Virus record (IMG/VR): IMGVR_UViG_3300025687_000234
Location: 1 to 28,503 of that record
Strand: one strand, 5' to 3'
Length of the DNA: 28,503 nucleotides
Origin: a virus
Below, one piece after another: positions 378-22,556 of the stretch (position 1 is the stretch's first letter; the number at the start of each line of letters is the position of its first letter). Both the position numbers and the translations under genes were made by a program. The notes under the pieces are model-generated. The model was given only the letters and a program-made list of their open reading frames with translations. It had not been told where the DNA came from and did no database searches.

Positions 378-948
378 TTACAAACTCCTTGTATAGTTCC
401 TCTAGATCAAAGTAACGATTGCTCTGATATGTATCGAATAGGGATAGTTTTTCTTTAAGGCTCATTACTTCCATAGGATTTTCAGGCCATAGTTCTTTTC
501 CTCTTTGGTCTTTCCACATTGCTCGTCTTTCAATATCCAAAGCTAACAAATCACAAATCTTGCATTTCTGTTCGACTTCTTCATTCATACTGAAGTGGTA
601 ATACTTGTCATATACCAGCTTATCTACTTTGTGCGTATAATCTGTATACCATTTCTTCATTAGACGTTTTAATGGAGTAGCAACATCCCCGTAGTAAGCT
701 TCAGGCCAATCATGCATAAGACAATGCAGTTGTACATCAGCTTCATGTGGAAATAGTCTCTTACTTAGATTAAGGACAAGAGCACTGTGTTGAGCTACAG
801 TGAGTGGTTCCTTGTCTTTGTGGTGCCCTGTGAAACGGTAGATATAATTAAGGGCAGTGTTAATGTCCTTAATGTCAATATCCTCTTCATTAAGTTCTCC
901 AAGGTCTAAATACCGTCCACTAGACATTCTCTTTGGGGCGATCATCAT
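367..948 (-). CDS. HD-domain phosphohydrolase (YfbR/5'-deoxynucleotidase-like)
   Basis: The 193-aa protein has the HD-superfamily metal-site pattern: His54 in AQHSALVLN, the HD pair at 79-80 in HCLMHDWPEAYYGD, and a downstream Asp in CDLLALDIERR. The WPEAYYGDVATPLK stretch is typical of YfbR-like deoxynucleotidases and related phage enzymes, which hydrolyse dNMPs or dNTPs. It directly follows a dATP/dGTP-diphosphohydrolase-like gene, so a role in adjusting the host nucleotide pool is likely. The start at 948 has AAAGGTAGG just upstream. A second ATG follows at 945 and a third possible start at 927 (MSSGRYL). The substrate cannot be read from the sequence. A DatZ-like dATPase is an alternative. 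Confidence 0.85.
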   Translation of the reverse strand: MMIAPKRMSSGRYLDLGELNEEDIDIKDINTALNYIYRFTGHHKDKEPLTVAQHSALVLNLSKRLFPHEADVQLHCLMHDWPEAYYGDVATPLKRLMKKWYTDYTHKVDKLVYDKYYHFSMNEEVEQKCKICDLLALDIERRAMWKDQRGKELWPENPMEVMSLKEKLSLFDTYQSNRYFDLEELYKEFVNDK

Positions 949-1720
949 TACCTACCTTTCTTTCTTCATAGGCAATCAGGAAGGCAATACAACAACCGGC
1001 GTGCCACAAGTGGCTTTTACCAGTTTCAGGATCGACCTTCTCACCACCCCACCATGCCCACATGTGCCTCATAAGTGCACCGAAGACACGACTCCAATTC
1101 ATACCTAATTCCCAGTTACGATCTCCTGTAGTATCAACAGGTCTTGAGATATCGTAAAGCTCGTTCAAGTCCTTCCACATTGTCTCCCAAAAATCCGAGT
1201 CCGTTATTACATCTTGAACATAGTATTCCTCTAAATCTCCCTGTTTCGTGGCAATGGTCAATGTGAGGGTACTTTGTCGATCCGCAAATTTTACATCCTT
1301 CTCTACATAGGGTGATGTACTGTTCTTCAGATAGCCCAAACCTAGCAAGTCTTCCCAACCATTTTGTTCTTTTGTCTCGTTTACGAGCTTTTGGACAATT
1401 TTTCCGACGTTCGGCAAGCCGCTTAACTTTGTCAGGATTTCGTTCTTCCCAATCCCTACGGTTTTGTCGTTGTCTTTCTGCGAATTCAGGATTATTTGCC
1501 CTAAGTTGTTTTTCGTAACAAGAACGACACATTCCCCTGCTGTAGTGAATTTTATCCCCTTTACATTTTTCACATCCAACAATCTGTCCCATTCAGTTTC
1601 ATACTCCCATGTGTATTTTTTTGCGCCGAAAGTCAGGATAGAGCCTACTCCAAAAAGAAGTTCTGGTGGAATAAGCTCCAACCTGATCTTTTCGCTGTCG
1701 TCCTTACGTCCTTCAGTCAT
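920..1720 (-). CDS. dATP/dGTP diphosphohydrolase-like protein (DUF5664), split by a 160-codon in-frame insertion
   Basis: Residues 1-36 (MTEGRKDDSEK, then LIPPELLFGVGSILTFGAKKY) and the C-terminal ~80 residues (GDRNWELGMNWSRVFGALMR, then HMWAWWGGE, DPETGKSHLWHAGC) are the two halves of the compact DUF5664 domain, annotated as dATP/dGTP diphosphohydrolase N-terminal-like. In the family, FGAxKY is followed almost directly by xxNW. Here about 160 codons (roughly 1127-1610) sit between the halves, and they carry an HNH endonuclease gene in another frame. The host frame stays open throughout, giving a 266-aa product. I chose the ATG at 1720 because it overlaps the upstream stop (ATGA). An ATG at 1738 is the alternative. 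Whether the product is active with the insertion is unknown. Confidence 0.75.
   Translation of the reverse strand: MTEGRKDDSEKIRLELIPPELLFGVGSILTFGAKKYTWEYETEWDRLLDVKNVKGIKFTTAGECVVLVTKNNLGQIILNSQKDNDKTVGIGKNEILTKLSGLPNVGKIVQKLVNETKEQNGWEDLLGLGYLKNSTSPYVEKDVKFADRQSTLTLTIATKQGDLEEYYVQDVITDSDFWETMWKDLNELYDISRPVDTTGDRNWELGMNWSRVFGALMRHMWAWWGGEKVDPETGKSHLWHAGCCIAFLIAYEERKVGNDDRPKENV
1134..1592 (-). CDS. Endonuclease VII-family HNH homing-type endonuclease nested in the DUF5664 gene
   Basis: The 152-aa protein has an N-terminal zinc-ribbon-like part (CEKC at 8-11, CRSC at 22-25), a basic middle, and a C-terminal recombination endonuclease VII motif: CKICG, IDHCHETG, FRGILCSRCNNGLGFLGDN. The paired CxxC motifs and the DHCH catalytic core match phage Endo VII/HNH enzymes, many of which are homing endonucleases. 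It lies wholly inside the DUF5664 gene in a different frame and fills almost all of the inserted DNA, so an intron core would not fit. A GGAG lies about 11 bases before the ATG. It is a likely mobile gene that inserted into, or was inherited with, the nucleotide-pool gene. Confidence 0.85.
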   Translation of the reverse strand: MGQIVGCEKCKGDKIHYSRGMCRSCYEKQLRANNPEFAERQRQNRRDWEERNPDKVKRLAERRKNCPKARKRDKRTKWLGRLARFGLSEEQYITLCREGCKICGSTKYPHIDHCHETGRFRGILCSRCNNGLGFLGDNVEGLERALRYLKTC

Positions 1721-18805: not shown

Positions 18806-19095
18806 GTGTACAATTCCTCATATTGTTTGTCAATCTGTATTGTAGCTGGTTTCAAGAGGCTTTCCAATTTAGGGACAAAATCATACTGTTTTAAGAGGTG
18901 ACAGACACTTATCAAGGCACGTATAAATTCTTCATCTATATTTCTATTTTGATTGGCATAATGAAACCAGAAATTGTGTCCCTGATTTGTGCTCATCCAG
19001 CTAAAAGCTCCGTAAAGTTGCTGACTTTGATCCTCTGTAAGAAGGTTATAAAAACTGTCTTTATGCAAACTATTGACAAGATTTACAAGAGACAT
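18802..19095 (-). CDS. Tail-tagged protein with a helical, non-SH3 domain (QIDKQYEELYT)
   Basis: The 97-aa protein lacks the beta-rich SH3-like pattern and looks helical (LVNLVNSLHKDSFYNLL, QSQQLYGAFSWMS, DEEFIRALISVCHLLKQYDF), yet it carries the same tail QIDKQYEELYT. This shows that the tail is attached to unrelated domains. The ATG overlaps the upstream amidoligase stop (TAATG) and the tail codons GAGGAA precede the next ATG. The function is unknown. Confidence 0.8.
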   Translation of the reverse strand: MSLVNLVNSLHKDSFYNLLTEDQSQQLYGAFSWMSTNQGHNFWFHYANQNRNIDEEFIRALISVCHLLKQYDFVPKLESLLKPATIQIDKQYEELYT

Positions 19096-19979
19096 TACAC
19101 TACCACTCTTTCTCCAAACTCCAAGACAAATGGGGACTTACCAAAATCATATGGGCAAACATATTTGCCAGTAGAAATACGCTTGGGTGCATCCTTGTAA
19201 TAATTGTACAGGCAGAAGACATTACTGTAGTTGTTGTCATAGCGATAGGTGTCTACAACATTGTGTCCAGTTGCTCGTGTAAAGAAGTCAGAAGAACTAC
19301 GAGAGAATGCAGCCCATACATCATCGATAGACCTGAAGGACAGAGCATAGTTGATTACACTATCAATAAGGTTAAGCCAACGATTAATTTCAGTGACATC
19401 TTTCGTACCCCTCATTTGACGAAACTCGATTGATCCAAGACGACCAATAGATGCAACGTTAAGGGCAGAATACTTGTACGTATTAAATGCACGTTCAGAG
19501 GCTACATAACTCCAATCCTGATCGACAACCTTCTTAAGGATATTCATGACATCTTCGGCATCGTACATACGGAGACAGAACAAATTACTTTGACGAGACT
19601 GTCCTGCAAATTCACTGATGTATGGTTCGACAATGTAGTATGTCAACAGCACTTGCAGCAATTGCTCATGGGTCCAGTTACAGACATTGACGTGAACGTG
19701 AGTGCTAGTACGTGTGCTGTCTATATAACGCTCGAAGAATGGCTCCTTCAGCAGAGTATCGACCTGCTCCATCAGTACCTGTTTGCTTTCAGGCTTACGG
19801 CTAATGAACTCGTAGCCGTATCCGCGAAGAGAGTTATCCGTCGTGGTTAGAAACCCATCGACGTAGTGTTCTCCAAGTGACCTTGAAAACTCCGCCTCAA
19901 TCTCAATTGCATATTGGCCAGAAAGTCTACCGATACGGCTATTGTACTTCTTGAGAACTGAACCAAGTGTATTAGTCAT
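19095..19979 (-). CDS. Amidoligase_2-type glutamine-synthetase-fold ligase
   Basis: The 294-aa protein has the Amidoligase_2 pattern: AIEIEAEFS (acidic metal-binding residues), TTDNSLRGYGYEFISRKP, THVHVNVCNWT (nucleotide-site His) and GSIEFRQMRGTKDV. These proteins use ATP to join a carboxyl to an amine. Iyer and colleagues described them as part of peptide-ligase systems with ATP-grasp and amidotransferase partners, and such partners are present here. Start at 19979 by ATGA overlap. Substrates are unknown. Confidence 0.85.
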   Translation of the reverse strand: MTNTLGSVLKKYNSRIGRLSGQYAIEIEAEFSRSLGEHYVDGFLTTTDNSLRGYGYEFISRKPESKQVLMEQVDTLLKEPFFERYIDSTRTSTHVHVNVCNWTHEQLLQVLLTYYIVEPYISEFAGQSRQSNLFCLRMYDAEDVMNILKKVVDQDWSYVASERAFNTYKYSALNVASIGRLGSIEFRQMRGTKDVTEINRWLNLIDSVINYALSFRSIDDVWAAFSRSSSDFFTRATGHNVVDTYRYDNNYSNVFCLYNYYKDAPKRISTGKYVCPYDFGKSPFVLEFGERVVV

Positions 19980-20604: not shown

Positions 20605-21426
20605 TTAGTTGTAGTATTCGGGGACAAACGAAAGAACAGGATACATATGCTCTTCTGGTTTTGTCGTTGCAGCAAACTTGTGCTCAAGGTCCAGCTTTGC
20701 AGAGTCTAGTCCACGAAGGACACCAAGTGTCGTATAGAATACCTTGTGAATGGTATCCTTGTTACGAAGCCAAGCATTGCTCAGTGGACGATATTCCATA
20801 CCATATTTCTTGGGACGGAAAGAACCGGGAGCACCATAGAGAGTACGACGAAGGTTATCATCATCCCAAGACTTGGAAAGACCCAGCAAATACTTATCCA
20901 ACTGCTGGGCAACAAGACAACAATCGGCAATGTGTCCTTTGTAATTGGGGTCTGCATAGTTACCCTCACTAAGCCAAGAGATGTGGACGTGACCACTACC
21001 AGTACGAAATGGTTCTGTCGTCTGTGGCCGTGGGTTTGCTTGTCCTTCTTTGTAGGCATTGAAGTCAGGTTCACAACCCAATTCGAGAGTATGGGCAGGC
21101 AGACTATCAAAGTAACGCTTGTCAAACCTTGCCGTAGGAGTTGGAACCAATGATGCATTGGGGTTCTTGCGTATGATCATATCCTTCATTTGTCCGACAA
21201 CAGAGGTAATGTTCGTAAAGAACTGCTCGAAGTTATCGGTAGGATCGATGTTGAACTCTGCAGCCACACCATCTACCTGCACTGCACCATTACGTACGGC
21301 ATAGGGCCTAGCTTTTGTTCCGGGGATAAGAGGACCATCCCGTGTTTCGGCAGAGATGAATTGACCAGTCGTACGATCCTTGAGAAACAGTTCAGGATCG
21401 GCACCAAACTTGAATGCTGTTGTCAT
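20605..21426 (-). CDS. phiEco32-type COOH-NH2 ligase (type 2)
   Basis: The 273-aa protein starts MTTAFKFGADPELFLKDRTT and continues with GAVQVDGVAAEFNIDPTDN, LELGCEPDFNAY, TGSGHVHISWL, and PKKYGMEYRPLSNAWL. This is the pattern of the phage COOH-NH2 ligase type 2 family (GADPEL...QVDGVA.EFN), a glutamine-synthetase-fold ligase first named from phage phiEco32. It probably joins an acid and an amine using ATP. It is one of two GS-fold ligases in the cassette and overlaps the class II amidotransferase gene (ATGA). The substrate is unknown. Confidence 0.88.
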   Translation of the reverse strand: MTTAFKFGADPELFLKDRTTGQFISAETRDGPLIPGTKARPYAVRNGAVQVDGVAAEFNIDPTDNFEQFFTNITSVVGQMKDMIIRKNPNASLVPTPTARFDKRYFDSLPAHTLELGCEPDFNAYKEGQANPRPQTTEPFRTGSGHVHISWLSEGNYADPNYKGHIADCCLVAQQLDKYLLGLSKSWDDDNLRRTLYGAPGSFRPKKYGMEYRPLSNAWLRNKDTIHKVFYTTLGVLRGLDSAKLDLEHKFAATTKPEEHMYPVLSFVPEYYN

Positions 21427-22556
21427 GCGTTAACTCCTTCTTGTTTGACAATATCCTCTAGGTTATCTTTACTGAACCCATAGGACTCTAGGTTTTCTGA
21501 TTCTACACAATCAGTGCAGATGTATTCTTTTGTAAAGTGCAAAGCTGGCAAACCCTTGCTGTCAAGATTACAACTGATGTTACCACATACTGCACATGGC
21601 TTGTTTAGCTCTTTGAGAAGATCGCTTTCCGACACAATTCGATTACCGACCTTGTAGAAATCTTCCTCTTTGGGGGACTGATTGTTCTGCTTACCTTTGT
21701 CTTTGGTATGCGGCTGTCTTCGTCCGTTCTTCCAGTGTTCTGTGTCGTTGTAGTTCCAGTGTTGGGAACGAAAGGAAGCTTGTTGCTGCCCATAGGTATA
21801 ATACGTGGTGACAGGGGGCGAATAGTAGTTGGGTTGAACTATAATACGCTGATCACCATAGGCATTTGGATCAATGGTAATCAGTGCATGAGGTGGTACT
21901 GGTTCAATCTCATAATCCTTAAGGTCATTTGCACGATCTAAAGCTGCTGTCAAGAAACCCCTTTCAGATGCCCACCAAAGCTTGGATGTTTGTTTGTGTC
22001 TGGCAATGAACAGGGTACGAGAATGATTACGAATAAGACGGATACAATCATCGCGCCTATCGTACCACTGAAGGGCATAGGCCATGGATGTAGAATCCTT
22101 GTACACACTCTCCAAAGTTTCTTTGATGCCCTTGTCAGGAGCCTTGCTATTGGAATCTAGCAGGTTGTAGAAAGCTTCACTATCAGTCTCGTACTTGTCA
22201 CTGTCTTTAAACTTGCCGGTGATTGTACCGTTGTGCATACCAAGAAGACTGTTGGTTTTGAATGGGTGGTTGTTGGCAACTTCAATCTTACCGACAGTGG
22301 CATGACGAGAATGACCCATAAGTGATTTGATACGATCCTCATTCATGAACTTGTGGAACTCTGGGGTAAAGATATAGGCCGATGATGGAAGCTCACTATG
22401 ATCCCATTTGTAGTATGCCTTGTTCTTCTTGTCGAAGGTCATCACAGTACCACAACCATGAGCACCACGAAGGGTATTCATCATGAACAGTGTCTTCCAA
22501 ATCGTCATGTCATTCTTGGTAACGAACATGCCAGTAAATCCGATAAGACCACACAT
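21423..22556 (-). CDS. Class II (Ntn) glutamine amidotransferase-like protein with C-terminal zinc motif
   Basis: The 377-aa protein starts MCGLIGFTG, so Cys2 becomes the N-terminal nucleophile after Met removal. RGAHGCGTVM, GHSRHATVGKIEVANNHPF and LGMHNGTITG are the class II amidotransferase substrate motifs, as in PurF and GlmS. After about residue 230 a low-complexity Tyr/Gln-rich linker follows, then a Cys cluster (CAVCGNISC, then YICTDC). The last part is likely a zinc-binding add-on and replaces the usual synthetase domain. It could supply ammonia, or act as an amidase on a glutamyl product. Start overlaps the upstream stop (TAATG). Confidence 0.88.
   Translation of the reverse strand: MCGLIGFTGMFVTKNDMTIWKTLFMMNTLRGAHGCGTVMTFDKKNKAYYKWDHSELPSSAYIFTPEFHKFMNEDRIKSLMGHSRHATVGKIEVANNHPFKTNSLLGMHNGTITGKFKDSDKYETDSEAFYNLLDSNSKAPDKGIKETLESVYKDSTSMAYALQWYDRRDDCIRLIRNHSRTLFIARHKQTSKLWWASERGFLTAALDRANDLKDYEIEPVPPHALITIDPNAYGDQRIIVQPNYYSPPVTTYYTYGQQQASFRSQHWNYNDTEHWKNGRRQPHTKDKGKQNNQSPKEEDFYKVGNRIVSESDLLKELNKPCAVCGNISCNLDSKGLPALHFTKEYICTDCVESENLESYGFSKDNLEDIVKQEGVNA

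Follow-up and report, generated by a model that had tools for sequence, protein, structure and literature searches.

The window analyzed here is a stretch of viral DNA of 28,503 nt (IMG/VR record IMGVR_UViG_3300025687_000234), the minus strand of which carries a single open frame of 272 aa at positions 920–1738. The likely start codon of this host gene is the ATG at 1720–1718 (gene 920–1720), which overlaps the stop codon of an upstream ORF (1717–1893), and the product begins with MTEGRKDD, comparable to the MSEGRKDD of its relatives. The only Pfam match of the host ORF is PF18909 (dGTP_diPhyd_N, named DUF5664 in an earlier sequence-only reading), which is split into two stretches with an E-value of 1.4e-29 and, taken over the complete ORF, a score of 102.4 bits (cut-off 27); the product is, by family, a dATP/dGTP diphosphohydrolase. 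The N-terminal part, MTEGRKDD...FGAKKY, was located at 1613–1720 by Pfam and by alignment to relatives, and the C-terminal part, GDRNWELGMNW...KENV, at 920–1126 (including the stop codon) by Pfam and by invariant columns, both on the minus strand. All of the family-invariant residues, which occupy 19 columns in an alignment of 55 dGTP_diPhyd sequences, are retained across the two halves and, together with the family match, assign the gene to this family. A PDB sequence search using the host alignment gave no match.

The two parts are separated by 486 nt of inserted DNA (1127–1612, minus strand), the edges of which were fixed by alignment with uninterrupted dGTP_diPhyd relatives, as the sequence-only reading had proposed. 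At this site, the uninterrupted genes of Nostoc phage Nsp-JY18 and Microcystis phage Mel-JY33 encode ...FGAKKYEDRNWEKG..., and other relatives encode ...FGATKYGERNW... or ...FGANKYAARNW.... In the window, FGAKKY is followed by 162 additional stop-free codons in the host frame and then by GDRNWELG, which places the insert between AKKY and GDRNW. Among the best 80 of 129 close relatives retrieved with the C-terminal half, 79 have no insert at the site and the 80th is interrupted by a contig end; the longest ordinary loop noticed there comprises 12 additional residues (Gordonia phage OneUp gp129), and the equally long, unrelated loop that had been named as grounds for abandoning the insertion was absent from these relatives.

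Almost the entire insert consists of an ORF of 459 nt (152 aa; 1134–1592, minus strand) for an Endo VII-type endonuclease, which matches PF02945 (Endonuclease_7, E 1.2e-15) and phrog_2914 (E 2.6e-29). The insert starts 20 nt before the ATG of this ORF and ends 7 nt after its stop codon, so that 27 nt lie outside it, and the host frame corresponds to the endonuclease frame +1. The earlier description of a 459-base Endo VII-like gene lying out of frame between FGAKKY and GDRNWE, with about 160 host codons free of stops, is therefore upheld in its architecture and site, and its insert length of about 484 bases is revised to 486 nt. A GGGAG sequence at 1604–1608, 11 nt before the ATG, was recognized as a possible ribosome-binding site. 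In the portion of PMC6083498 available, DHHRN (Endo VII-motif) homing endonucleases are defined by D, H, H, R, and N residues. The window gene possesses Asp112, His113, His115, Arg121, and Asn129 as well as the zinc cysteines Cys100, Cys103, Cys125, and Cys128, all at invariant alignment columns, and its profile matches the structures of Hpy99I and T4 Endo VII. It is thus a candidate homing endonuclease of the DHHRN type, which may cut the empty target site.

The window's insertion was found in only one other contig (IMGVR_UViG_3300022200_005848, locus L006), which ends inside it; copies with and without the insert may coexist in that sample. This second contig is identical at 510/511 nt, and the single difference alters an amino acid of the endonuclease and none of the host protein. 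L004, a partial copy of the insertion on this contig with the N-terminal half only, was not counted as a separate case. The same phage also carries, farther downstream, amidoligase and glutamine amidotransferase genes (19095–19979 and 21423–22556), and its genome likewise contains genes for RNR, thymidylate synthase, a Cas4-like exonuclease, DNA polymerase, and primase/helicase.

Splicing signals and the predicted fusion protein

A search against Rfam gave no match at E-values up to 1 in positions 800–1900 and none at the gathering score in the window. With only 27 nt outside the ORF, no group I intron core was recognized, and this assignment was rejected. An intein was likewise rejected, since the fusion contains no intein Pfam domain and the junction residues are absent: the insert ends with Thr instead of Asn and is followed by Gly instead of Cys, Ser, or Thr. 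These results agree with the earlier view that neither a group I intron nor intein motifs are present. Over the five dGTP_diPhyd cases described below, the first residues after the insert are G, A, A, D, and A, and the insert ends are not conserved between nested cases. A matching pair of take-off and landing codons for translational bypass was not found in the window (TAC and ACA).

In an AlphaFold2 model of the window fusion, the host core was predicted confidently (10-residue block means of 93–98 at residues 21–40 and 211–270) and the insert poorly (25–62 from residue 41 to 200), and a fold search of the model against the PDB gave no match below E 0.6. An internal ATG in the host frame (1180–1178), with GGGAG 3 nt upstream, could yield the C-terminal half alone.

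Recurrence and mobility

Searches with Endo VII queries against IMG/VR, bacterial genomes, and phage records yielded 220 distinct viral/phage loci and 80 genome loci. Split dGTP_diPhyd genes were detected with a profile of uninterrupted genes, without requiring an open frame. Nested Endo VII genes at the same KY|NW site of dGTP_diPhyd occur in the window, in the closely related loci L098 and L347, in L500 (Modicisalibacter coralii), and in L501 (Microvirga lupini). A tree was built with a quick method from 75 sequences, of which 20 were labelled and 55 randomly chosen among the other loci; 40 of its 72 inner branches are weak. In it, the five nested dGTP_diPhyd endonucleases form one clade (SH-aLRT 91), which falls in a 12-row group (support 88) together with L129, another sequence, and five free-standing genes located immediately upstream of dGTP_diPhyd. 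The five cases stem from one invasion event or clade, and hence are not five independent insertions. Free-standing Endo VII genes directly upstream of dGTP_diPhyd were seen in several phages (L013:2495–3914, L014:2468–3483, L099, L100, and L102), and in Reindeer, a relative of Bongo, the endonuclease is absent from this place.

Nested Endo VII genes flanked by host domains were also found in other host genes. L101 carries one in TerL, between the ATPase and nuclease domains and with no intein domain, and L129 carries one within an SNF2 helicase. A single helicase site, before a W-LN-EQ motif, is occupied in L167, L307, and the Gordonia phages Squiddly (gp64, L262) and Malisha (gp71, L263). In L290:378–3503 and L514:833–4105 (Variovorax), the genes lie at a like place in helicase-methylase genes, with the host in the +2 frame. 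The hosts of L514 and L263 were assigned from their sequence and a host-half search, most queries of which came from the nested loci themselves, so that this search is uninformative about broken insertions elsewhere than in these gene families. Furthermore, the TerL inteins of L258:790–1560 (Mycolicibacterium phage phi1_186018) and L352:1196–2098 possess a splicing domain (PF14890), and in the middle of each an out-of-frame Endo VII gene replaces the in-frame endonuclease domain. In Squiddly, Malisha, and phi1_186018, nothing but the host gene is annotated where the Endo VII match lies, and nested endonucleases can therefore escape annotators.

Several candidates were dropped as nested cases. 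L110, L133, and L168 are open in the +1 frame and are short, lie at a contig edge, or gave no host domains, the host-domain scan having covered L110 and L133 of these three. In L377 two Endo VII-like frames overlap in a G+C-rich contig, L473 has a +2 frame of 212 codons, and L490 overlaps the start of a downstream gene. The hits in SansAfet, PP74, and K19PH14C4P1 proved to be adjacent genes rather than nested ones.

Evidence bearing on mobility also comes from the helicase site, at which Holliday gp68 (1296 nt), related to Squiddly gp64 (1857 nt), lacks the insert; the insertion position was taken from the two translations. Between Squiddly and Malisha, 113 of 1299 compared flank positions (~9%) and 1 of 537 positions in the endonuclease ORF differ, and their near-identical tract, from about 2091 to 2932 of L262, extends beyond both insert ends. 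This tract fits homing with co-conversion, and it could also be the product of plain recombination. A target-site duplication, which had been suspected from the likeness of the window borders, was rejected, since the resemblance of GGAGTATGAAACTG to GGAGATCGTAACTG (10/14) was reached by 680 of 2000 shuffles. At the borders of L098, a 10/11 repeat was equaled by 42 of 2000 shuffles.

Openness of the host frame

Across the window Endo VII ORF, an open +1 frame has a probability of 0.0007 when synonymous codons are shuffled within the gene and of 0.010 when codons are sampled according to window usage (each estimate from 20,000 draws), which bears out the earlier judgment that chance openness is unlikely. 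The synonymous shuffles contain on average 3.9 stops in the +1 frame, and the remaining forward frame holds 19 stops. In 37 ORFs of the window, the +1 frame is the one poor in stops (0.051 vs 0.100 stops per codon), which may be why nearly all nested cases lie in the +1 frame.

Among the 220 viral/phage loci, the +1 frame is open in 16 (one of which is the second copy of the window's insertion) against a shuffle expectation of 7.5, and the +2 frame in 4 against 1.0. The expected open frames come mostly from G+C-rich genes. In such hosts an open +1 frame is often expected by chance, and these cases accordingly count only through their host domains. Below 50% G+C, 4 open +1 frames were seen against 0.9 expected (n = 123), and in these low-G+C cases the host frame is kept open beyond chance. 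A stop count over nested cases (0 seen vs 17.7 expected, n = 10, excluding L263 as a near-copy of L262) is biased by loci having been found through openness and was not relied on.

Because most nested cases were found by their openness, the question of selection was addressed with tests independent of it. All five Endo VII loci that hold both dGTP_diPhyd halves have one open frame, with shuffle P values of 0.002 (window), 0.053 (L098), 0.002 (L347), 0.0044 (L500), and 0.70 (L501); their product, 6.5e-10, is overstated since L098 and L347 are related. In contrast, none of the five sister endonucleases outside the host gene is open (2–9 stops in the +1 frame; Fisher 0.004). The +1 frame is also closed in L453, a sixth Endo VII gene with dGTP_diPhyd downstream that lies elsewhere in the tree, and the +1 stops of 207 non-nested Endo VII genes are not depleted (observed/expected 1.035).

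The pattern of substitutions by host codon position was also examined. The flanks show a third-position excess in L262/L167 (81/59/175 and 43/24/65) and in the C-flank of L098/L347 (12/8/30), with a weak third-position bias in the N-flank of L098/L347 (13/14/25). In the inserts of divergent nested pairs, the counts of 29/81/41 and 36/103/69 peak at the second host position, which is the third position of the endonuclease. Conservation thus serves the endonuclease within the insert and the host gene in the flanks. Across the insert, the host frame can vary freely, yet it remains open; between L098 and L347, 186 substitutions in 194 codons have introduced no stop.

A possible mechanism, its alternatives, and known systems

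A possible mechanism is proposed, in which the conserved KY|NW site of dGTP_diPhyd genes is the target of an Endo VII (DHHRN) homing gene that carries no splicing element. The insert would be dual-coding: the endonuclease would be read from its own start codon, perhaps with the aid of the GGGAG sequence, and the +1 frame would continue the host gene. With the +1 frame maintained free of stops, translation of the host gene could continue across the insert and give the full host enzyme with a mostly unstructured loop of ~162 residues, at a place of variable length in relatives, and the enzyme may tolerate this loop and remain functional. Selection would shape the insert in the endonuclease frame, the host frame being required only to stay open, and the insert would be neutral enough to persist because the +1 frame is readable. 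This reading, of a homing gene with a stop-free +1 frame and a host protein made with a long loop, is considered probable. Of the three options initially offered, a tolerated fusion and selection for an open frame are supported, and an unusual bypass is not needed because the host frame is open.

Alternatively, the endonuclease may have disrupted the host gene, the halves being made separately and reassociating, or the gene dying, with the open frame incidental. Phage genes split by endonuclease insertions are known, such as T4-like nrdA with mobE, and the ATG at 1180–1178 with its GGGAG precedes the C-terminal half and could serve as its start. However, a split gene would have no use for an open frame, which all five nested dGTP_diPhyd cases retain and all five sisters lack, and the window's two halves keep every family-invariant residue; this explanation is regarded as unlikely. 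Removal of the insert by an undescribed RNA or protein splicing, with the frame open for another reason, would suit the intron- or intein-like interruption of the host at a conserved site and the presence of an insert in the essential gene TerL without an intein domain (L101). It is rendered quite improbable by the lack of an Rfam family, an intein domain, and a terminal Asn, by the G/A/A/D/A residues that follow the insert in the five cases, by an Endo VII ORF that leaves only 27 nt, and by insert ends that vary between cases, and RNA splicing would not require an open frame.

A recent insertion, open by accident and not yet decaying, draws on the P of 0.010 for one case under window codon usage and on the chance openness of some G+C-rich Endo VII genes. 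The finding of an open frame in all five divergent genes interrupted at this one site, against closed frames in the sisters, and the stop-free divergence of L098 and L347 make this account very improbable. Translational bypass, in which the ribosome hops across the insert, is hardly credible: bypassing beside homing genes has a precedent in T4 gene 60, and the border repeat of L098 could be read in its favor, but the window has no matched take-off and landing codons, a hop requires no open frame, and 486 nt is, to our knowledge, far beyond known translational hops.

The ShiLan domain, described in 2025, is an HNH endonuclease nested in mycobacteriophage methylases, and a second one occurs in Pacc40 (PMC11855218). 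As in ShiLan, the in-frame insertion in the window is filled by an endonuclease gene that has a start and a stop of its own, the host frame remains open, no intron or intein was found, and the host frame is the endonuclease frame +1, there as judged from an endonuclease start at insert base 18 (PMC11855218). Both systems also have free-standing relatives in other phages, placed immediately upstream of the host gene, in Sashimi and Tiff81 there and in OneUp and Bongo here (PMC11855218). In contrast to the HNH nuclease and methylase hosts of ShiLan, an Endo VII (DHHRN) nuclease and dGTP_diPhyd, TerL, and helicase hosts are involved here, and the likeness of the insert 5′ end to downstream host sequence reported there is here not beyond chance (PMC11855218). 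The window element works like ShiLan, yet it is not filed as a ShiLan element. The available part of the ShiLan study gives no stop-avoidance or substitution test (PMC11855218). F-CphI, a DHHRN homing endonuclease of cyanophage S-PM2, shares the Endo VII catalytic motif and the homing function of the family and, unlike the nested window gene, is described in the part of the source at hand as free-standing near an intron-containing psbA (PMC6083498).

OneUp gp128 (Gordonia phage) and Bongo gp77 (Mycobacterium phage), which are among the closest phage-record relatives, are Endo VII genes beside dGTP_diPhyd and, unlike the window gene, lie outside the host gene and have closed host frames (4 and 2 stops). 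The insertion in frame at a conserved site of the host protein resembles that of an intein with a homing endonuclease domain; in contrast to an intein, the window has no splicing domain, and in L258 and L352 such a domain encloses an out-of-frame Endo VII gene. In the literature covered, which excluded bioRxiv preprints, Endo VII genes nested in this way were not found described. A preprint of the ShiLan group on non-canonical intein architecture, cited in the ShiLan study, may cover cases like L258, and among the papers covered, ShiLan-type elements are said to appear only in that study, in its 2023 forerunner, and in one 2025 genome announcement.

The window element is real and not unique, and it extends a recently described kind to another nuclease family and to new host genes, with evidence for maintenance of the host frame. 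We lean slightly toward a broader view, in which pass-through homing genes form a general class that sits without splicing inside host genes, even terminase, the +1 (rarely +2) frame being kept stop-free; the lineage seen here would once have neighbored dGTP_diPhyd and then entered it, and related lineages would have entered inteins, replacing the in-frame endonuclease domain. Such a class, if real, would add to introns and inteins a third way for a mobile gene to invade a gene without killing it. Cultured examples are available in Squiddly gp64 and Malisha gp71, together with the insert-free Holliday gp68, and the presence of the loop in the host protein is therefore directly testable. Splicing is the usual explanation for mobile genes within coding sequences. 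In a second nuclease family and several unrelated host genes, statistical and comparative evidence supports a host frame that is kept open instead.
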